The notes under the pieces are model-generated. The model was not told the DNA's origin and searched no databases. It was given only the letters and a program-made list of their open reading frames with translations. A program made the translations under genes and the position numbers. This document shows positions 26,376 to 36,011 of a DNA stretch of 52,047 nucleotides, one piece after another (the stretch's first letter is position 1; every line of letters starts with the position of its first letter). The stretch comes from Chloroflexota bacterium (GTDB lineage Bacteria > Chloroflexota > Dehalococcoidia > SHYB01), in the NCBI GenBank assembly GCA_016875535.1, contig VGPF01000011.1, positions 1 through 52,047 of the forward strand, given 5' to 3'.

Positions 26376-26465
26376 CTGCGCCTATCCCTCCTGCCGGCCT
26401 TTCTCCGATCAAGCCGGCGAAAATTTCGCGTATCATACACCTCCCTACAACAGATGGGGGGAATC

Positions 26466-27215
26466 ATGCACGCCACGACGATTGACGACGTCATCCACCA
26501 GCTCACGGCTATCGTTGAGCGCTCCAGAGAAACCACGAGCCGCCAGGGGTATTTCGCCGCCCTCTACCGGCGCGTCACCATCGCGGTGAAAGAAGGCATC
26601 GCCGCCGGGCGCTTCCAAGACGGCCCTCGGATGGAGCGGTTGGACGTCATTTTCGCAAATCGCTATCTAGAGGCCTATGCCCAGTACCAAGAGGGCCGGG
26701 CCTGCTCGCAATCGTGGCGCGTCGCCTTCCACCAATCATCCCGCTGGCGGCCTATCATCCTCCAGCATCTCCTCTTGGGCATGAACGCCCACATCAACCT
26801 CGATCTCGGCATCGCCGCGGCGCAAACGGTGCCAGGCAGCGCCCTGCCGGGACTAGAGCGCGACTTCAAAGAAATCAACATGGTGCTGGCAGAAATGACA
26901 GATTCGGTAAAGGCTGGCTTGAACAGGGTATCGCCGCTACTGGGATGGGCCGACCGCGTTGGGAACAGGGCTGACGACGCAATCGTGAACTTCAGTATGA
27001 AGAACGCTCGAGACGCCGCCTGGGCGTTCGCCCGGAAGCTCGCTCCATTGGATGAGGGCGCTCAGGCCGCCGCTATCGCCGCCCGCGACCAGGAAGTGGC
27101 CCGATTCGCCCGTCTGATCAGCAACCCCGGCCTCTTCGGCGATAGCATCACCTTCGCCATTCGCCTCCGAGAGTCAGGCGATGCCTCTAAGGTCATCGCT
27201 GCCCTCACCGCCTAA
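26466..27215 (+). CDS. DUF5995-like protein
   Basis: A 249-residue, mostly helical soluble protein. GRFQDGPRMERLDVIFANRYLEAYAQY and FHQSSRWRPIILQHLLLGMNAHINLDLGIAAA match, as far as I recall, the conserved core of the DUF5995 family, which has no known activity. The run of conserved His and Asp residues (HLLLGMNAHINLDL) could bind a metal; that is a guess. The ATG at 26466 has GGGGGA five bases upstream; an ATG at 26454 would add four residues. It is monocistronic and lies just before the sulfur-operon leader. Confidence 0.7.
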   Translation: MHATTIDDVIHQLTAIVERSRETTSRQGYFAALYRRVTIAVKEGIAAGRFQDGPRMERLDVIFANRYLEAYAQYQEGRACSQSWRVAFHQSSRWRPIILQHLLLGMNAHINLDLGIAAAQTVPGSALPGLERDFKEINMVLAEMTDSVKAGLNRVSPLLGWADRVGNRADDAIVNFSMKNARDAAWAFARKLAPLDEGAQAAAIAARDQEVARFARLISNPGLFGDSITFAIRLRESGDASKVIAALTA

Positions 27216-27280: not shown

Positions 27281-27309
27281 TTGACGATTCCTCTCTTGAT
27301 CGATACTGT
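27281..27309 (+). promoter_or_regulatory. Promoter of the sulfur-assimilation operon leader
   Basis: TTGACG (27281-27286), 17 bases, then TACTGT (27304-27309). The predicted start at about 27316 leaves only some six bases before the ATG of the leader peptide, so the leader would be translated as a nearly leaderless message. Confidence 0.6.
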
Positions 27310-27321
27310 ACTCAGACTTCA

Positions 27322-27393
27322 ATGAGCATCCACTCCACCGCCTGCTGCATGTGCTGTGACAACCCCGGCCCGGGAGGGATACGCGCGCAGTAG
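27322..27393 (+). CDS. Cysteine-rich leader peptide of 23 residues
   Basis: ATG 27322 to TAG 27393 encodes MSIHSTACCMCCDNPGPGG and four more residues. Four of five consecutive codons (8, 9, 11, 12) are Cys. It lies between a promoter and an intrinsic terminator, directly upstream of genes that make sulfide for cysteine synthesis, which is the architecture of ribosome-mediated attenuation: slow decoding of Cys codons during cysteine shortage would prevent termination. There is no ribosome-binding site, but the predicted transcription start is so close that leaderless initiation is likely. Cys-rich leaders of this sort are known upstream of sulfur genes in Actinobacteria; the role here is inferred. 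Confidence 0.72.
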   Translation: MSIHSTACCMCCDNPGPGGIRAQ

Positions 27394-27450
27394 TCGGCTC
27401 GAAGAGACAAACGTCGCGAAGCCCCCCGGTGAAAATGGGGGGCTTTTTTT
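27370..27450 (+). terminator. Attenuator: antiterminator arm and intrinsic terminator
   Basis: Terminator: AAGCCCCCC (27419-27427) pairs with GGGGGGCTT (27437-27445) around a nine-base loop, followed by seven T residues (27444-27450). Antiterminator: CCGGGAGGG (27370-27378), inside the leader-peptide frame just after the Cys codons, can pair with CCCCCCGG (27422-27429), giving eight pairs with one bulged A and removing the terminator's 5' arm. A ribosome stalled on the Cys codons would leave 27372 onward free; one that reaches the stop codon would cover or clear it and allow termination. Confidence 0.8.
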
Positions 27451-27481: not shown

Positions 27482-28537
27482 GTGAGGCGTAGTGGAAACA
27501 TCAGATGGGTGACCGTTGGAGTGGCAGGCGCCGCTCTGCTGGCCCTCGTCACCCTCCTCTTTGGCTGCGCCTCAGCGGACGCCTCAACAGAGGCCACACG
27601 AGTTCGCGTCGGCTATTTCCCCAACGTGACGCACGCCCAGGCGCTGATTGGACTGAGCCGGGGAGACTTTCAACAGGCTCTTGGACCGGGAGTCAAGACT
27701 TTAGAGAAGCGCTTCAATGCCGGCCCCGCCGTCATCGAAGCGCTGTTCGCGGGGGAGCTTGATCTGGCCTATGTTGGGCCAAGCCCCGCCATCAACGGGT
27801 ACGTCAACTCAGGTGGAGAGGCCCTTCGCATCATCGCAGGCTCTGCGAGCGGCGGCGCGGCGCTCGTGGTGCGCAAGGATGCGGGCATCCATAGCGCGAG
27901 CGACCTGAAGGGAAAGCGCATCGCCTCTCCACAGCTCGGCAACTCACAGGATGTGGCCCTGCGCTGGTACCTGAAGCAGGAAGGTTTCAAGACAAAGGAC
28001 CGGGGCGGCAGTGTGACGGTCCTCCCGGCCAAGAACCCGGATATCTTCACCCTCTTCCGCGATAGGCGCATTGACGGCGCTTGGGTGCCTGAGCCCTGGG
28101 CATCGCGCCTCATCGCTGAGGCCGGGGGTGAGCTCTTTCTGGACGAGCGCGAGCTATGGCCTGAGGGCGAGTTCGCTAACACCATCCTTATTGCCCGCTC
28201 GGGATTCCTGAAGCGGAACCCAAATCTAGTGAAGCGCTGGCTCGCCGCCCATGTGGAAGTCACCACTTGGCTCAACGGCCACCCGCAAGAGGCGCAGTCC
28301 CTCGTCATCCGCGTGATCCATCGCCTCACAGGTGTCAGCTTGAATCCCGCTATCGTCGCCGATAGCTTCGACCGCCTCACCTTCACCCACGACCCCATCG
28401 CCGCCAGCATCTCCCAGGTGGCCGAGCGCAACCACACCCTTGGCTTTTTCACGTCAAAGCCAACGGTCGCCGGGATAACCGATCTCAACCCCCTCAACGC
28501 CGTCTTACGCGAGCAAGCTCTGCCGGAGGTGCGCTAG
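27482..28537 (+). CDS. ABC transporter solute-binding lipoprotein, SsuA/TauA type
   Basis: Periplasmic-face binding lipoprotein for sulfonates or related anions, 351 residues. The signal peptide ends LLFGC, lipidated at Cys29. VRVGYFPNVTHAQALIG, LDLAYVGPSPAINGY and DLKGKRIASPQLGNSQDVALRWYL are the conserved SsuA/TauA/NMT1-like blocks. GTG start at 27482 with AGAAGGGG upstream, 32 bases after the attenuator T tract. ATPase and permease genes follow at once, then sulfate-activation genes. The context favours a sulfur compound; taurine, alkanesulfonate or sulfate cannot be told apart. Confidence 0.9.
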   Translation: MRRSGNIRWVTVGVAGAALLALVTLLFGCASADASTEATRVRVGYFPNVTHAQALIGLSRGDFQQALGPGVKTLEKRFNAGPAVIEALFAGELDLAYVGPSPAINGYVNSGGEALRIIAGSASGGAALVVRKDAGIHSASDLKGKRIASPQLGNSQDVALRWYLKQEGFKTKDRGGSVTVLPAKNPDIFTLFRDRRIDGAWVPEPWASRLIAEAGGELFLDERELWPEGEFANTILIARSGFLKRNPNLVKRWLAAHVEVTTWLNGHPQEAQSLVIRVIHRLTGVSLNPAIVADSFDRLTFTHDPIAASISQVAERNHTLGFFTSKPTVAGITDLNPLNAVLREQALPEVR

Positions 28538-28539
28538 CT

Positions 28540-29355
28540 ATGGCAACCCAGCGCAACGGCAGCAACGGCAACGGTACGCCGAAACTCAGCTTCCGCAACG
28601 TCGTGAAGTCCTTTGAGGGGGAACGGCAGAACACCCTCGCCCTCTCCGGCTTCGATCTGGATGTTTATCCCAGCGAGTTCGTCTGCCTTGTGGGGCCATC
28701 CGGCTGCGGCAAGACCACAGCCCTCAACCTCGCCGCAGGCTTCATCCGGCCGGATAGCGGCCATGTGCTTTTGGACGGCAAGCCCATCGAACGGCCCGGT
28801 CCCGATCGCGCCATGGTCTTTCAAGAGCATGCCCTCTTTCCATGGATGACCGTGCGGAAGAATCTGGAGTTCGCCCTGGAGATGATCAAGAAGCCGAAGA
28901 CGGAGCGAACCATCGTGACGAACTTTTACCTGAAGCTCGTTCACCTGGACGCCTTTGCCGATAGCTACATCCACGAGCTCTCCGGCGGCATGAAGCAGCG
29001 CGTCCAGATCGCACGCTCTTTGGCTCTGGCGCCCGCCGTCTACCTGATGGACGAGCCCTTTGCCGCGCTGGACGCCCTCACTCGCGATGAGCTCTACGAC
29101 GAGATCCAGCGCATCCTGGCCCAGACCAAACAGACCGTCCTCTTCATCACGCATAACATCCGCGAGGCCGTCATCCTGGGCGATCGCGTAGTGGTCATGG
29201 GCGGCGCGCAACCCGGCAGGATACGCAGCGATTTCACGGTAGACCTCCCGCGCCCGCGCAGCTTCGAATCGCCCGGTGTGAGCGATCTGATCTCCAAGAC
29301 GATGGCCGTCTTGAAAGCCGAGCCCGGCGCTGCGGAGGAATCGCTTCATGGGTAG
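28540..29355 (+). CDS. ABC transporter ATPase, SsuB/TauB type
   Basis: Cytoplasmic ATPase subunit of the importer, 271 residues. Walker A GPSGCGKTT (about 51-59), Q-loop in MVFQEHALFPW, signature LSGGMKQRV, Walker B VYLMDEPFAALD, and switch His in FITHNIREAV are all intact. The sequence belongs to the nitrate/sulfonate/taurine ATPase group. It starts two bases after the binding-protein stop and overlaps the permease start by eight bases, so the three transporter genes are coupled. Confidence 0.95.
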   Translation: MATQRNGSNGNGTPKLSFRNVVKSFEGERQNTLALSGFDLDVYPSEFVCLVGPSGCGKTTALNLAAGFIRPDSGHVLLDGKPIERPGPDRAMVFQEHALFPWMTVRKNLEFALEMIKKPKTERTIVTNFYLKLVHLDAFADSYIHELSGGMKQRVQIARSLALAPAVYLMDEPFAALDALTRDELYDEIQRILAQTKQTVLFITHNIREAVILGDRVVVMGGAQPGRIRSDFTVDLPRPRSFESPGVSDLISKTMAVLKAEPGAAEESLHG

Positions 29356-30178
29356 CATGGTCCAAGAGCCCAAAGAGACCCTGCCGGCCAAGCCTCGCTC
29401 CCATTGGCGCGGTTGGCGTGGCGTCTTCATCTCCCTCGCGTTCCTCGCCGCTCTGGGGCTCGTGTGGGAGGGCATCGTCCGCGCGGGCATCTGGCCCTCC
29501 TATTCGCTTCCTTCCCCCGCCACCGTGCTTGACCGCCTCTGGGTCGGAATCAAGAACAATACCATCCCCATCGCCATCGGCAGCAGCATGAAGCGGATGA
29601 TTGTCGGCTATGCCATCGCCGTTGTTATCGGCATCGTCCTGGGCATGGTGATCGCCCGCTATGAGCTGGCGGAACGCACCATCGGCCTTGTGGTCTCCGG
29701 CCTGCAGTCGCTCCCCAGCATCACCTGGCTCCCTCTGGCGCTTATCTGGTTCGGCCTAAACGACCGCGCCATCATCTTTGTCGTCATCATGGGCTCCCTT
29801 CTGGCGGTAAGCCAGGCCGCCGCCGATGGCGTCCGCAACATCCCCCCGCTCTACCTCAGGACAGCCCGCAACTTGGGCGCAAGCGGCCCCACGTTATTCA
29901 TACGGGTTATCTTTCCTGCCTCGCTTCCGAGTTTGATTACAGGCATGAAGCTCGGCTGGGCCTTTGCCTGGCGGGCCCTGATGGCCGCTGAACTGCTCTT
30001 CATCACCCCCGGGTTGGGCCATCTGTTGGAAGTGGGCCGGGAATTCAACGATACCGCCCGGGTTATCGCCGTCATGGCGGTCATCGTCTTCCTCGGCATC
30101 GTCGTGGATCGCCTCGTCTTCTCGCCTGCTGAAAAAGTCGTTCGCAAGCGCTGGGGCCTCACGGGCCTCCAGGCCTAA
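29348..30178 (+). CDS. ABC transporter permease, SsuC/TauC type
   Basis: Membrane subunit of the importer, 276 residues with about six transmembrane helices. The inner-membrane EAA-type loop reads DGVRNIPPLYLRTARNLGASGPTLFIRVIFPASLP, which docks on the ATPase. The central helices match the binding-protein-dependent transport family (SsuC/TauC/NrtB). It ends 26 bases before the ATP sulfurylase-APS kinase gene, placing import and activation on one message. Confidence 0.94.
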   Translation: MGSMVQEPKETLPAKPRSHWRGWRGVFISLAFLAALGLVWEGIVRAGIWPSYSLPSPATVLDRLWVGIKNNTIPIAIGSSMKRMIVGYAIAVVIGIVLGMVIARYELAERTIGLVVSGLQSLPSITWLPLALIWFGLNDRAIIFVVIMGSLLAVSQAAADGVRNIPPLYLRTARNLGASGPTLFIRVIFPASLPSLITGMKLGWAFAWRALMAAELLFITPGLGHLLEVGREFNDTARVIAVMAVIVFLGIVVDRLVFSPAEKVVRKRWGLTGLQA

Positions 30179-30204
30179 TATGAGATTGATTGAAGGAGTA
30201 CCTA

Positions 30205-31944
30205 ATGTCTGGCAAAGCAACAACGGCTGACGGGCTGGTGGCCCCACACGGCGGCGCCCTCAGGAACCTGGTGGCGGATGCCTCCAAGGCCGCGGCGCTG
30301 AAGAAAGAGGCTTTGGCCCTCCCAAGCTGGGACCTGACGGCAAGGCAGGTCTGCGATATCGAGATGCTCCTCAACGGCGCCTTCTCCCCCCTTGCAGGCT
30401 TCCTTGGGGAGCAGTCCTACCTGCGGGTCTGCAAAGAGATGCGCCTCGCCTCCGGCGCCCTGTGGCCTATGCCCATCACGCTGGATGTGACGGAGGAGTT
30501 CTCGAGCAAACTCACCAAAGGGCAAAAGATCGCCCTGCGCCATCCGGAAGGCATGGTCCTGGCCGTTATGACCGTCGGCGATATGTGGAAGCCGGATCGC
30601 GAGCAAGAGGCCCTCCGGGTCTTCGGCACCAAAGACACCCTGCACCCCGGCGTCTTCACCCTGCTCAAGCAGAGCAACCCCGTCTACCTCGGCGGGCCCA
30701 TCGAAGGCATCGAGCTGCCGCCGCAGTACACCTTCAATGAACTGCGCCACACCCCGACGGAGCTGCGCGCCCTCTTCCAGAAGCGCGGCTGGCGCAATAT
30801 CGTCGCCTTCCAGACGCGCAACCCCATGCACCGCGCCCACGTGACCCTCACCCAGCGCGCGCTGGAAGTCTCCAAGGCCGATGCCCTGCTCTTGCATCCC
30901 GTCGTCGGCATGACCAAGCCGGGCGATGTGGACTACTTCTCCCGCGTGCGCTGCTATCAGGCCATCATGCCCTACTACCCGGAGCAGAGGCGCGCCCTCA
31001 GCCTCCTGCCCCTCGCCATGCGCATGGGCGGCCCCCGCGAGGCTCTCTGGCACGCCATCATCCGGAAGAACTACGGCGCCAACCATTTCATCGTGGGGCG
31101 GGACCATGCAGGCCCGGGCAACGACTCTACAGGCAAGCCCTTCTACGGCCCCTATGACGCCCAGACGCTCACCCAGAAGCATCAGGCCGAGCTCGGCATG
31201 ACCATCCACATGTTTGAAGAGATGGTCTACTTGGAGAACCAGAAGACTTACGTCCCCCGCTCGGAAGTGCCTACGGGCGCCAAGATCGGCAACGTCTCCG
31301 GCACGGAGCTGCGCAACCTCCTCAACAGCGGCGGCGATATCCCGGAGTGGTTCTCCTACAAGGAAGTAGTCCAGGAGCTGCGGCGCACCTACCCGCCGAA
31401 GGCCGCCCAAGGCTTCACCGTCTTCTTCACCGGCCTGCCCAGCTCCGGCAAGTCCACAGTCGCCAACGCCTTGCTGGCCAAGCTCATGGAGCGCAGCGGC
31501 AGGCCCGTCACCCTGCTGGACGGCGACCACGTCCGCAAGATGCTCTCCAGCGAGCTGGGCTTCTCCAAGGAGCACCGCGACCTGAATATCCGCCGCATCG
31601 GCTATGTGGCGAGCGAGATAACCAAGCATCGCGGCATAGCCATCTGCGCCCCCATCGCGCCCTACGCCTCCATCCGCCGCGAGGTGCGGGAGATGATCGC
31701 CCAGTACGGCGCCTTTGTGGAGGTCTACGTCTCCACCCCCGTTGAAGTCTGCGAGACCCGGGACCGCAAGGGGCTCTACGCCAAGGCCCGCGCGGGTCTC
31801 ATGAAGGGCTTCACCGGCGTGGACGACCCCTACGAAGTGCCGGAGAAACCCGAAATCACCCTCGATACGTCTAAACTGCATGTGAAGGATTCCGTCCAGA
31901 AGGTCGTTGATTACCTGAAGGCCCAGGGCTTGTTGGAGGCCTAG
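30205..31944 (+). CDS. sat/cysC: Bifunctional sulfate adenylyltransferase / adenylylsulfate kinase
   Basis: A 579-residue fusion that makes APS from sulfate and ATP (residues 1 to about 395) and can phosphorylate it to PAPS (about 400-579). The sulfurylase part has QTRNPMHRAH (203-212) with the HxxH motif and GRDHAGPG (298-305). The kinase part has Walker A GLPSSGKST (410-418), DGDHVRKML and an FSKEHRDLNIRRIGYV block. The ATG at 30205 has AAGGAG six bases upstream; an earlier TTG at 30190 overlaps that site and is unlikely. The kinase looks intact although the reductase downstream is of the APS type, so PAPS may be made for another use. Confidence 0.95.
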   Translation: MSGKATTADGLVAPHGGALRNLVADASKAAALKKEALALPSWDLTARQVCDIEMLLNGAFSPLAGFLGEQSYLRVCKEMRLASGALWPMPITLDVTEEFSSKLTKGQKIALRHPEGMVLAVMTVGDMWKPDREQEALRVFGTKDTLHPGVFTLLKQSNPVYLGGPIEGIELPPQYTFNELRHTPTELRALFQKRGWRNIVAFQTRNPMHRAHVTLTQRALEVSKADALLLHPVVGMTKPGDVDYFSRVRCYQAIMPYYPEQRRALSLLPLAMRMGGPREALWHAIIRKNYGANHFIVGRDHAGPGNDSTGKPFYGPYDAQTLTQKHQAELGMTIHMFEEMVYLENQKTYVPRSEVPTGAKIGNVSGTELRNLLNSGGDIPEWFSYKEVVQELRRTYPPKAAQGFTVFFTGLPSSGKSTVANALLAKLMERSGRPVTLLDGDHVRKMLSSELGFSKEHRDLNIRRIGYVASEITKHRGIAICAPIAPYASIRREVREMIAQYGAFVEVYVSTPVEVCETRDRKGLYAKARAGLMKGFTGVDDPYEVPEKPEITLDTSKLHVKDSVQKVVDYLKAQGLLEA

Positions 31945-31957
31945 GAAGGACGCGACG

Positions 31958-32692
31958 ATGGCGACTGTGGAAAAGATCACGCAAGAGAACATCGGCGGAT
32001 ACGCCAAGCGCATGGAGAAGGCGGAGCCTCAGGAGCTGCTCTCCTGGGCTATCAACCGGTTCCATCCCCGGCTGCTCCTCGCCTGCTCCTTCGGCGGCGC
32101 ATCAGGCATGGTGCTACTGGATATGGCGGTGAAGCTCAAGCACGATGTCCGCGTCTTCTACCTGGACACAGACTTCCTCTTTCCTGAGACGTACGAGACG
32201 CTCCGCAAGGTGGAGGCCAAGTACGGCATCAAGGTGGAGGCCTATAAGTCCGAGTACACGCCGGACCAGCAGGCGGCCAAGTTCGGTCCGGAGCTGTGGA
32301 AGCGCGACCCGGACAAGTGCTGCGACCTGCGCAAGGTGGAGCCCAACCGCAAGGCCATGGCCACGGTGGACGCCTGGATCACCGGCCTCCGGAAAGACCA
32401 GTCTAAATCGCGCGAGGCCACGCCCGTCCTCCAGTGGGATGAAGGCTTTGACGTGGTGAAGGTGAACCCCCTGGCCTCCTGGACGGAAGACCAAGCCTGG
32501 CACTACGTTCGCGACCACAAAATCATCGTGAACCCGCTTCTTGGCCGGGGCTTTAAGAGCATCGGCTGCACCTACTGCACCCGAATCACCAAGCCGGGCG
32601 AAGATGCCCGCGCCGGGCGCTGGGAAGGGTTCGAGAAGGACGAATGCGGCCTGCACGTGGCCCCAAAAGCAAAAGCGCCGAAGGCGAACTAG
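31958..32692 (+). CDS. cysH: Adenylylsulfate (APS) reductase, 4Fe-4S type CysH
   Basis: Assimilatory reductase releasing sulfite from APS, 244 residues. SFGGASGMVLLDM is the phosphosulfate-binding loop. The iron-sulfur cluster ligands CC (121-122, KCCDLRKVEP) and CxxC (204-207, IGCTYC) mark the APS-using bacterial group; PAPS reductases lack them. The catalytic Cys lies in ECGLH (Cys230). It needs thioredoxin or glutaredoxin as electron donor. It follows the sulfurylase-kinase gene by 13 bases and precedes the sulfite reductase by 45. Confidence 0.95.
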   Translation: MATVEKITQENIGGYAKRMEKAEPQELLSWAINRFHPRLLLACSFGGASGMVLLDMAVKLKHDVRVFYLDTDFLFPETYETLRKVEAKYGIKVEAYKSEYTPDQQAAKFGPELWKRDPDKCCDLRKVEPNRKAMATVDAWITGLRKDQSKSREATPVLQWDEGFDVVKVNPLASWTEDQAWHYVRDHKIIVNPLLGRGFKSIGCTYCTRITKPGEDARAGRWEGFEKDECGLHVAPKAKAPKAN

Positions 32693-32737: not shown

Positions 32738-34561
32738 ATGGCAGAAACAGCGCAACCCAGGCACCAGGCAGACATCCACCGCGAAAGCCTCACCCTGGCG
32801 AAAAAGATGAAGAACGGCATCATCCCCTACATGGAGGATGAGATCCAGACCCTGGAGTCCAACATCGCCAAGTTCCGCGCCGGGGAATATGAGGAGAAGG
32901 TCTTTATCCCCCTGCGCCTGCGCCAGGGCACCTACGGCCAGCGCCAGCCGGACCGCCAGATGATCCGCGTGAAGCTCCCCGGCGGCATCATCACACCGGA
33001 GGCATTGGAGGCCTTTGGCGAAGCCATCGAACAGTACGCGCCCCTCAAGAAGGGCCACCTGACCACCAGGGAGAATCTTCAGGTCCATCACATGAAGCTG
33101 GAGGACTGCTCCGGCTTCATGCGCGTCATCGCCGAGGCAGGCCTCAGCAGCCGCGAAGGATGCGGCAATACCGTCCGTAACGTCACCGGCTCGCCCCTCG
33201 CGGGCATCTGCCCGGATGAGACCTTCGACCCCACACCTTACCTGGCGGCCTATGTGCGCTTCGGCCTACGCCACCCCGTCACCCAGAGCTTCCCCCGCAA
33301 GTGGAAGACCTCCTTCTCCGGGTGCGGGAAGCACGATGAAGTCGTCACCCTGATCAACGACTTCTCCTTCGTCGCCAAGATCAAGGACGGCAAGAAGGGC
33401 TTCAAGGTCTACATCGGCGGCGGCACCTCCATCATGCCCCGCCTGGCCAAGACGCTCTATGAGTTCATCCCGGCGGAGGATATCCTGCGCGTCTCCCTGG
33501 CCTCCTGGACCGTCTTCAACAAGGCGGACATGCTGCGCAAGAACCGCATGATGGCCCGCATCAAAGTCTTGGTGGACAAGATCGGCATCGAGGCCGTGCG
33601 CGCTCAAGTGGATGAAGAGCTCAAGAGCATCGGCCCCATTGACCCCACTCCCTACATGGGCGTGGACGATATCTACAAGGAGACGCCCCCAGCGGTCTCC
33701 AAGAACGGCCACCAGCACCACGAGCCGGACTTCGCCGCCTGGAGAAAGACCAACGTCGTCGCCCAGAAGCAGAAGGGCTACTACGCCGTCTACGCCAACA
33801 TCCCCTCCGGCGATATCCACACCCACCAGTACAAGCCCCTCGCCGAGCTCCTTCGCAGATACACAGGCGGGCGCGGCATCGTCACGCCGGAGCAGAACAT
33901 CCTCCTGCGCTGGATCCCGGAAGCGAACCTCTACGATGTCTGGAAGGGCCTCAAGGCCCTCGGCTTCGCGAATCCGGGCGTCAACGCCGTCACGGACGTG
34001 ATCACCTGCCCTGGAACGGATAGCTGCAAGCTCGGCATCACGTCAACCATGGGGCTCGGGCGCGCCCTCATGGATGCGATGAAGTCCTGGGGCGATCTCC
34101 TGAACGATCCCCTGATCCAGAAGGTTCACATCAAGGGGAGCGGCTGCCCCAACGGCTGCGGCCAGCACCACATCGCCAACATCGGCTTCCACGGCGCGGC
34201 CATGAAGGGTCCCGGCGGCCAGCAGGTCCCCTCGTACGAAGTCTTCCTCGGCGGCAACTACGGCATGGAGACCCACGTGGACGGCCTCACCTTCGGCAAG
34301 CGCCTCTCCGGCGTGAAGGTTCCCTCCAAGCGCACGCCGGACTTCGTGAAAGACGTCCTCACCTACTACAAGGAGAACCGGAACCCTGGCGAAGAGTTCA
34401 ATCCCTTCGTAGCGCGCGTGGGCCTCAAGCCCTTTGAAGCCCTTGCCGCCAAGCACAACGAGATTCCCGCCCTTGGCCCCCAGAGCATCACCATGTACAT
34501 GGATTGGGACAAGACCATCCTCTACAAGGTGGAGCGCGGCGAAGGCGAGTGCGCGGTCTAG
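32738..34561 (+). CDS. sir: Siroheme/4Fe-4S sulfite reductase (nitrite/sulfite reductase family)
   Basis: A 607-residue hemoprotein for six-electron reduction of sulfite to sulfide. Two ferredoxin-like half repeats are present. The cluster/siroheme ligands are Cys424 and Cys430 (TCPGTDSC) and Cys470 and Cys474 (SGCPNGC), in the C-x5-C-xn-C-x3-C order of the family; the last Cys bridges to siroheme iron. RENLQVHHM and VRNVTGSP are conserved substrate-side blocks. Length fits the ferredoxin-dependent single-subunit enzyme. Nitrite reductases share these motifs, but the position after cysH and before siroheme genes favours sulfite. Confidence 0.93.
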   Translation: MAETAQPRHQADIHRESLTLAKKMKNGIIPYMEDEIQTLESNIAKFRAGEYEEKVFIPLRLRQGTYGQRQPDRQMIRVKLPGGIITPEALEAFGEAIEQYAPLKKGHLTTRENLQVHHMKLEDCSGFMRVIAEAGLSSREGCGNTVRNVTGSPLAGICPDETFDPTPYLAAYVRFGLRHPVTQSFPRKWKTSFSGCGKHDEVVTLINDFSFVAKIKDGKKGFKVYIGGGTSIMPRLAKTLYEFIPAEDILRVSLASWTVFNKADMLRKNRMMARIKVLVDKIGIEAVRAQVDEELKSIGPIDPTPYMGVDDIYKETPPAVSKNGHQHHEPDFAAWRKTNVVAQKQKGYYAVYANIPSGDIHTHQYKPLAELLRRYTGGRGIVTPEQNILLRWIPEANLYDVWKGLKALGFANPGVNAVTDVITCPGTDSCKLGITSTMGLGRALMDAMKSWGDLLNDPLIQKVHIKGSGCPNGCGQHHIANIGFHGAAMKGPGGQQVPSYEVFLGGNYGMETHVDGLTFGKRLSGVKVPSKRTPDFVKDVLTYYKENRNPGEEFNPFVARVGLKPFEALAAKHNEIPALGPQSITMYMDWDKTILYKVERGEGECAV

Positions 34562-34648
34562 AGGAAAAGGATCAGGGTTCCAGGAGCAAGGGTGAGGGTG
34601 AGAACAAGGCCCTGCTCCACGCTTCCTGAACCCTGGACCGAGGCAGCT

Positions 34649-35014
34649 ATGGCCCCCAGCAGAAAAAAGGCTCTGGAATACGGCGAGCGCCTCATCGCTC
34701 ATCCGAGGGCGCGCCTGCCTGTCACCCTGCGCCAGACGAAAAATGGCGTCACGCTTCTGCATAATGGGAAGGCGGTGACCCGCTGCTATCTCACGCCCTC
34801 CGGCCTCCGGGCAGCGACGCTGATGGCCCGGGCCCTTGGCGTGAAAGTGCCTCCCTTGGGCAAGTCCGTGGATGCCCAGGTCTCCACAGGCATCGTCTGG
34901 AGGGCCATCTCCCTCTCGGCCCTGGACTATCGGAAAGAAGAGTCGTACCCGCTGGCGGAGCGCCTCCTGGAAGAGGCCGAAGCCATGCGCACCAGCGAAA
35001 GTGTGGAGCTGTGA
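34649..35014 (+). CDS. Uncharacterised protein in the sulfur operon
   Basis: About 121 residues, soluble and basic at the start. I do not recognise the family. Readable features are ALEYGERLIAHPRARLPVTLRQTKNGVTLLHNGKAVTRCYLTPSGLRAATLMARALGVKVPP, which suggests a small alpha/beta fold, and a helical end rich in Glu. The ATG at 34649 is preferred because the 19 residues before it (from 34592) look like read-through of non-coding sequence. Its stop overlaps the start of the next unknown gene (GTGA), so the two are translationally coupled and probably act together in sulfite or siroheme metabolism. Confidence 0.65.
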   Translation: MAPSRKKALEYGERLIAHPRARLPVTLRQTKNGVTLLHNGKAVTRCYLTPSGLRAATLMARALGVKVPPLGKSVDAQVSTGIVWRAISLSALDYRKEESYPLAERLLEEAEAMRTSESVEL

Positions 35015-35361
35015 GCCGGTACATCGAAGTGAACGTGGAGGAAGGGGCGAATAGCCCCATGACGGTGAACCGGATGTTCAGCGTGGCCGAACAGCCGCGC
35101 CCCGTGCGCGCCGTCTGGACCTCCCTCCCCACGGGCAAGGACGCCTGGTGCGAAGTGGTGGGCTGGTCACGCGAAGGGGTGTGCCAGGCCTACGCCGCCA
35201 CCGTGGAAGACTCCGGCGATGGCACCGCCCTCCTCGTCTTCGGCGGCAACGACGGCATCCGCCTGAAGCCCGAGGGCGAGCCGACGGCCTGGAGCCTGGG
35301 TACCAGAGAGCAGTGGGGCGAGCCGTGCCTCCTTCTTCCCCATGGGACGGAGGTGCGCTGA
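35011..35361 (+). CDS. Uncharacterised protein coupled to siroheme synthesis
   Basis: 116 residues from a GTG start, rich in beta-type sequence (RAVWTSLPTGKDAWCEVVGWSREGVCQAYAATVEDSG). No family recognised. It overlaps its upstream partner by four bases and shares its last base with the start of the precorrin-2 dehydrogenase (TGATG), so it is locked into the siroheme cassette. Three Cys residues are present but not in a metal-site pattern. A small accessory or chaperone for sulfite reductase would fit the context, but this is speculation. Confidence 0.65.
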   Translation: MSRYIEVNVEEGANSPMTVNRMFSVAEQPRPVRAVWTSLPTGKDAWCEVVGWSREGVCQAYAATVEDSGDGTALLVFGGNDGIRLKPEGEPTAWSLGTREQWGEPCLLLPHGTEVR

Positions 35362-36011
35362 TGCCCAGGAACTACCCCGTCTTCCTCACCCTTCGGGGGC
35401 GCAAGTGCCTTGTCATCGGCGGCGGCGAAGTGGCGACCCATAAGGCGCTCGGCCTGCTGGAGTGCGATGCGAACGTGACCGTCATCAGCCCCTCCGCCAC
35501 GCCTGCCCTGCGCGACCTGGCGAAAAGCGGCGCGATAACCCTTATCCAGCGCCCCTATCTCCCCGGCGACCTGAAGGGCGCCTACCTTGCCATCGCGGCG
35601 ACGAGCGCCGCCGATGTGAACCGGGACATCGCGAAAGAGGCGGAATCGCGGCGCGTGCTCTTGAACATCGTTGACGTGCAAGATCTCGGGGATTTCTTCA
35701 CCCCTGCCGTAGTCCAGCGCGGCCAGGTGACTATCGCTATCTCCACCAGCGGGGCAAGCCCGGCCCTGGCCCGCAAGCTCCGGGAGGAGCTTGCCACGGC
35801 GAACGCCCTCCAGTGGGCAGACCTGTCCGACGTCCTCTCCGCCGCACGCCTCGAGCTGCGCAAGCGCAAACTCAAGGCCATCCCCAAGCGCTGGCAGGAG
35901 GCCATCACGCCTGACCTGCTCGCCCTGGTTCGATCAGGCGAATCCCAAAAGGCCCTTGCCAAGGTGCTCCATGCGCTGACCAAAGAGACGGTCAAGGAGG
36001 CGGCGCGATGA
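35361..36011 (+). CDS. Precorrin-2 dehydrogenase / sirohydrochlorin ferrochelatase (CysG N-terminal type)
   Basis: A 216-residue protein equal to the N-terminal half of CysG (Met8p/SirC-like). VFLTLRGRKCLVIGGGEVATHKALGLLE holds the NAD Rossmann motif GGGEVA, followed by IAATSAADVNRDI and LNIVDVQDLGDFFTPAVVQRGQVTIAISTSGASPALARKLREEL, the family's conserved core. It oxidises precorrin-2 to sirohydrochlorin and may insert iron to make siroheme. The start is the ATG overlapping the previous stop. Earlier in-frame codons back to 35148 read through another gene and are rejected. Confidence 0.93.
   Translation: MPRNYPVFLTLRGRKCLVIGGGEVATHKALGLLECDANVTVISPSATPALRDLAKSGAITLIQRPYLPGDLKGAYLAIAATSAADVNRDIAKEAESRRVLLNIVDVQDLGDFFTPAVVQRGQVTIAISTSGASPALARKLREELATANALQWADLSDVLSAARLELRKRKLKAIPKRWQEAITPDLLALVRSGESQKALAKVLHALTKETVKEAAR

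Follow-up and report, generated by a model that had tools for sequence, protein, structure and literature searches.

The leader region described here lies within a 52,047-nt stretch of DNA from a Chloroflexota bacterium of the class Dehalococcoidia (contig VGPF01000011.1). We refer to this whole stretch as the window. The leader stands directly in front of a sulfur-assimilation operon on the same strand, and the features of both are as follows.

27281..27309, + strand: putative sigma-70-type promoter TTGACG-N17-TACTGT (-35 TTGACG at 27281-27286, 17-nt spacer, -10 TACTGT at 27304-27309)
27322..27393, + strand: predicted leader-peptide ORF MSIHSTACCMCCDNPGPGGIRAQ, 23 codons, from ATG at 27322 to TAG ending at 27393; Cys-run ORFs are likewise placed in 24 further elements
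27343..27357, + strand: putative regulatory Cys codons TGC TGC ATG TGC TGT (codons 8, 9, 11 and 12), also within the 5' arm of the 1:2 hairpin
27370..27378, + strand: predicted antiterminator 5' strand CCGGGAGGG, pairing with 27422-27429 in the terminator 5' arm
27382..27398, + strand: predicted 3' arm of the 1:2 (anti-antiterminator) hairpin, pairing with the Cys-codon region 27340-27358 in the minimum-energy fold
27418..27450, + strand: predicted intrinsic terminator with an 11-bp stem, a 7-nt loop and U7 (stem-loop 27418-27446, -20.7 kcal/mol; T7 at 27444-27450)
27482..28537, + strand: first operon gene, SsuA-family (sulfonate/nitrate-type) substrate-binding protein (SBP)
28540..30178, + strand: ABC transporter ATPase (28540-29355) and permease (29348-30178)
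30190..31944, + strand: bifunctional sulfate adenylyltransferase/APS kinase (PRK05537 equivalog)
31958..32692, + strand: CysH, (P)APS reductase
32738..34561, + strand: sulfite/nitrite-reductase family protein, below equivalog cut-offs
35148..36011, + strand: ORF whose residues 76-276 (C-terminal part) match the siroheme synthase CysG N-terminal domain; its true start is probably near 35370

Two small ORFs of the operon, 34592-35014 (140 aa) and 35011-35361 (116 aa), matched no Pfam family, and the former matched no NCBIfam family either. The gene directly upstream of the leader (26454-27215) encodes a DUF5995 protein (PF19458).

The promoter and the 23-codon frame with Cys at codons 8, 9, 11 and 12, as claimed in a preliminary description of this DNA, are present in the sequence in every detail. 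Predicted folds confirm the other elements it had named, a strong terminator with seven T residues and a mutually exclusive antiterminator arm after the Cys codons, and gene annotation confirms their position before a sulfur-assimilation operon.

A probable near-leaderless start

The promoter matches the consensus at 8 of 12 bases (3 of 6 in the -10 hexamer), which is why a consensus scanner did not report it. Its -10 box lies only 12 nt ahead of the leader ATG, which has no Shine-Dalgarno sequence. Given this spacing, we infer that transcription in the window starts near 27316, leaving a 5' UTR of about 6 nt. About half of the leaders of relatives follow the same pattern: a TANNNT motif ends 6-12 nt 5' of the ATG in 12 of 23 leaders (1.75 expected; 0 of 2000 shuffles), at a distance of exactly 9 nt in seven of them, and a Shine-Dalgarno-like tetramer occurs in only 4/23. 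Because -10 boxes crowd the ATG and Shine-Dalgarno sequences are rare, these leaders are probably translated as near-leaderless mRNAs, like the polycysteine ORFs of mycobacteria. UTRs are longer in some leaders (L174, L175, L180).

The leader is single-copy in its source genome, with four Cys in five codons (27343-27348 and 27352-27357). The Cys-codon pattern TGYTGYNNNTGYTGY matches that genome 11 times, compared with 13 for the reversed control, and by itself is at chance level and no evidence. Only the match in the window combines a short ORF with a strong terminator 61 nt downstream and a position just before a sulfur operon. Since the pattern alone is at chance level, we examined its recurrence in other genomes, and the proof is comparative.

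Recurrence before sulfur genes in Chloroflexota

The binding protein and CysH served as search targets in 393 genomes of the class, which gave 98 usable regions, none longer than 18 kb. Together with the window, these were scanned on both strands for a short ORF that has three or more Cys codons among six and a terminator no more than 200 nt behind it. This search for short Cys-run frames with terminators before related Chloroflexota operons, proposed in the preliminary description, was strongly positive. The scan returned 18 matches, of which 17 precede sulfur genes and lie on the strand of the operon, and inspection of other near terminators and of terminator-less Cys-run ORFs added L174, L175, L235, L241, L196, L197 and L246. 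The total is 25 elements in 22 genomes, window included: 24 elements in 21 genomes from 11 families of the class, and one (L315) in another Chloroflexota class. The leader of L091 is the same as that of G099. All 25 stand directly before cysH, SBP-ABC, PHO4- or TauE-type permease, or sulfite reductase genes, and in each the terminator follows the last Cys codon by 52-104 nt. Since the same design is found before sulfur genes in 21 other genomes, chance can almost certainly be dismissed in favour of a genuine regulatory switch.

The association also holds without preselection for Cys. Clusters of Cys codons precede 15 of 22 terminators near cysH or SBP genes, versus 8 of 118 elsewhere (p=1e-9); the latter eight include two elements of the same kind (L163, L181) situated further upstream. 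Cys is the one outlier among the 20 amino acids (p=1e-9); the next, Leu (p=0.0025), probably reflects a frame-shifted reading of the Cys codons. Over 22 leaders the Cys codons comprise 54 TGT and 36 TGC.

A genuine small Cys-rich protein, binding metal or acting in redox chemistry and encoded by chance ahead of a constitutive terminator, is very improbable as an explanation. From general knowledge, CCxCC and the longer Cys runs could bind metal. However, outside the Cys run the families share no peptide sequence, the arm that follows the Cys run pairs with the terminator, and the genes downstream act in sulfur assimilation.

Within the class, 19 of 90 CysH regions have the element and most do not. 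Leader presence on the 90-protein CysH tree requires 5 changes, compared with 12-19 for shuffled labels, and the leader therefore appears to be mostly inherited and not sporadic. Further afield, among 80 loci of SBP homologues from other phyla and Chloroflexota classes, no leader with terminator was found near the SBP gene except in one Dehalococcoidia record, and 40 cysH regions from the wider phylum yielded one clear element (L315) and one terminator-less Cys-run ORF (L295). In three genomes the predicted Cys attenuator occurs at two separate places: G031 (L181), G099 (L236, L243) and G156 (L230, L242). In these pairs, one precedes a cysH or permease gene and the other an SBP transporter operon, which would form a small regulon.

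Many leader-less relatives have an Rrf2 regulator and/or a YezD-like gene (named by eye) beside the transporter operon. Upstream of the SBP gene in the leader-less loci L015, L018, L019, L025, L027 and L030, an Rrf2-like and/or small YezD/DUF2292-like gene is often present, followed by a dyad, GACCAG-N4-CTGGAGGCC, which is conserved, has a terminator-like hairpin immediately behind it and gave no Rfam match. The dyad is weaker in L020, L022-L024 and L026; it is possibly an Rrf2 operator or an RNA element of another kind. The source genome of the window itself encodes an Rrf2-family protein elsewhere. The assertion in the preliminary description that cysteine feedback here operates "without a protein regulator" is thus too strong, given this gene and the Rrf2 genes beside the same transporter operon in some relatives.

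A predicted antiterminator arm matched to its own terminator

Antiterminator arms pair with their own terminators at -20.0 kcal/mol, versus -15.7 kcal/mol for foreign ones, and none of 100,000 permutations was as good; the result was again 0/100,000 for the non-redundant 20 and when the window was left out. We used this own-versus-foreign permutation because the arms are short and G/C-rich, which makes a shuffled-sequence test of single elements weak. In all 22 elements tested, against 8.3 expected, the best-pairing stretch starts no more than 20 nt behind the last Cys codon, the actual distances being 0-14 nt. The stop codon, at +27 to +78 counted from that codon, generally lies past the stretch. 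Examples are L163 (CCTGAAGGG with CCCTTCAGG), L172 (CATCCGCCGGGT with GCCCGGCGGATG), L230 (CGCTCGGGGG with CCCTCGAGCG) and L240 (GAGGGGCTG with CAGCCCCTC); in L226, L234, L235, L242 and L243 the preference for the own arm is weak. The refuting outcome named in the preliminary description, a conserved hairpin with unconserved Cys codons, was not seen: conservation lies in the Cys codons themselves, whereas the hairpins differ in sequence and change together with the antiterminator arm.

The 1:2 hairpin encloses the antiterminator strand and therefore excludes antiterminator pairing. The window and many relatives show it clearly, with moderate support from the family test (p about 0.006-0.008). 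In the window, the predicted fold without a ribosome consists of the 1:2 hairpin and the terminator; with a ribosome on the Cys codons it is the antiterminator (-25.3), and with a ribosome beyond them the antiterminator pairing is gone. The predicted structures and the co-variation thus describe a mutually exclusive antiterminator suited to a stalled or moving ribosome.

A metabolite riboswitch or T-box, with the ORF a chance reading, would also place a terminator with alternative pairing ahead of a sulfur operon, but we regard it as highly unlikely given the specific enrichment of Cys codons, the lack of conserved aptamer-like sequence between families and the Rfam scans, which gave no family match besides tRNA and tmRNA, even at E up to 1.

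A proposed cysteine attenuator and its relation to known systems

Recurrence and co-variation support the reading of the preliminary description. We consider the element to be a cysteine-responsive, ribosome-mediated transcription attenuator acting via charged tRNA-Cys (probability about 0.9), with a leader ORF that would be translated and respond to cysteine. RNA polymerase would start a few bases 5' of the leader ATG, with a ribosome following it. When Cys-tRNA is scarce, the ribosome would stall on codons 8-12 and open the hairpin that the Cys codons form with 27382-27398. The strand 27370-27378 would then be free to pair with the terminator 5' arm at 27422-27429, and the polymerase would read through into the operon. 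When Cys-tRNA is plentiful, the ribosome would reach the stop codon (27391-27393) and cover the antiterminator strand, leaving the terminator (27418-27446) to fold and stop transcription in U7. On RNA that carries no ribosome, the 1:2 hairpin together with the terminator would keep the operon off.

The alternative that survives best, though still an unlikely one, is translation attenuation or Rho-dependent control in the mycobacterial style, in which stalling gates ribosome access to the first gene or Rho loading, making the hairpin incidental. It would fit near-leaderless starts like those of mycobacteria (PMC9031893) and the similar-looking leaders L244 and L245, which have no intrinsic terminator. 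L245 belongs to G002, a genome of the same family as the window with the same transporter operon. Against it, all 25 elements have a terminator 52-104 nt downstream of the last Cys codon, with a 5' arm that specifically matches the post-Cys strand. In the window, the terminator ends about 36 nt before the start codon of the first gene, which leaves the ribosome-binding site outside the hairpin. Terminator-less Cys-run ORFs before SBP or cysH genes occur in L244 (G338; RICCCLC), L245 (SCACCMCSMC) and L295 (G668; CTCCCCDCTCAC), and could be translational or Rho-dependent variants.

As a transcription attenuator, the element would extend amino-acid leader-peptide attenuation to Chloroflexota and offer these mostly uncultured bacteria a possible way to match sulfate reduction to cysteine supply. 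It also suggests that transcription-translation coupling from near-leaderless mRNAs works in this phylum. The 25 located elements are open to direct testing in a reporter host.

The classical attenuators (trp, his, leu, ilv, thr, phe) share its plan: regulatory codons within a leader ORF, successive arms that pair in alternative ways, an intrinsic terminator and, downstream, genes in the pathway of the sensed amino acid. It differs from them in the amino acid, cysteine, in the phylum and in the apparently near-leaderless start without a Shine-Dalgarno sequence in most members. The preliminary description had placed cysteine attenuation mainly in Actinobacteria. Cysteine leaders have indeed been described there (Seliverstov 2005), but without obvious terminators (PMC1262725), and in M. 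smegmatis polycysteine leaders act by cysteine-responsive translation attenuation (PMC13236596). The leaderless polycysteine short ORFs of mycobacteria (Canestrari 2020, as presented in PMC13236596 and PMC9031893) likewise combine a short Cys-run uORF with downstream cys or sulfate genes. The window element resembles them in its leader, which is probably near-leaderless too; we set it apart from these translation attenuators because it possesses a terminator, with a co-varying antiterminator, and so would supply the complete switch missing from the described actinobacterial cysteine leaders.

In the open-access literature we found no cysteine attenuator for Chloroflexota, in line with the preliminary description, and no terminator-type one for a sulfate-assimilation operon; judged from sequence comparison, both would be new. 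Among described systems of the terminator type, the nearest is the uORFC-8-2 motif, located before cysS in Rhodobacterales (PMC8632094). It too is predicted to act as a ribosome-mediated transcription attenuator, and it has tandem Cys codons as well as a terminator stem. Compared by description, it differs in controlling cysteinyl-tRNA synthetase, in phylum and in having two tandem Cys codons, whereas the first gene here encodes the substrate-binding protein of a sulfur operon. On balance we lean toward Chloroflexota having a cysteine attenuator regulon of their own, independent of both the translational leaders of mycobacteria and the cysS attenuator of Rhodobacterales. In it, near-leaderless polycysteine leaders with a terminator/antiterminator switch would have spread to, or arisen before, several different points of entry into sulfate assimilation: the ABC and permease transporters, cysH and sulfite reductase.
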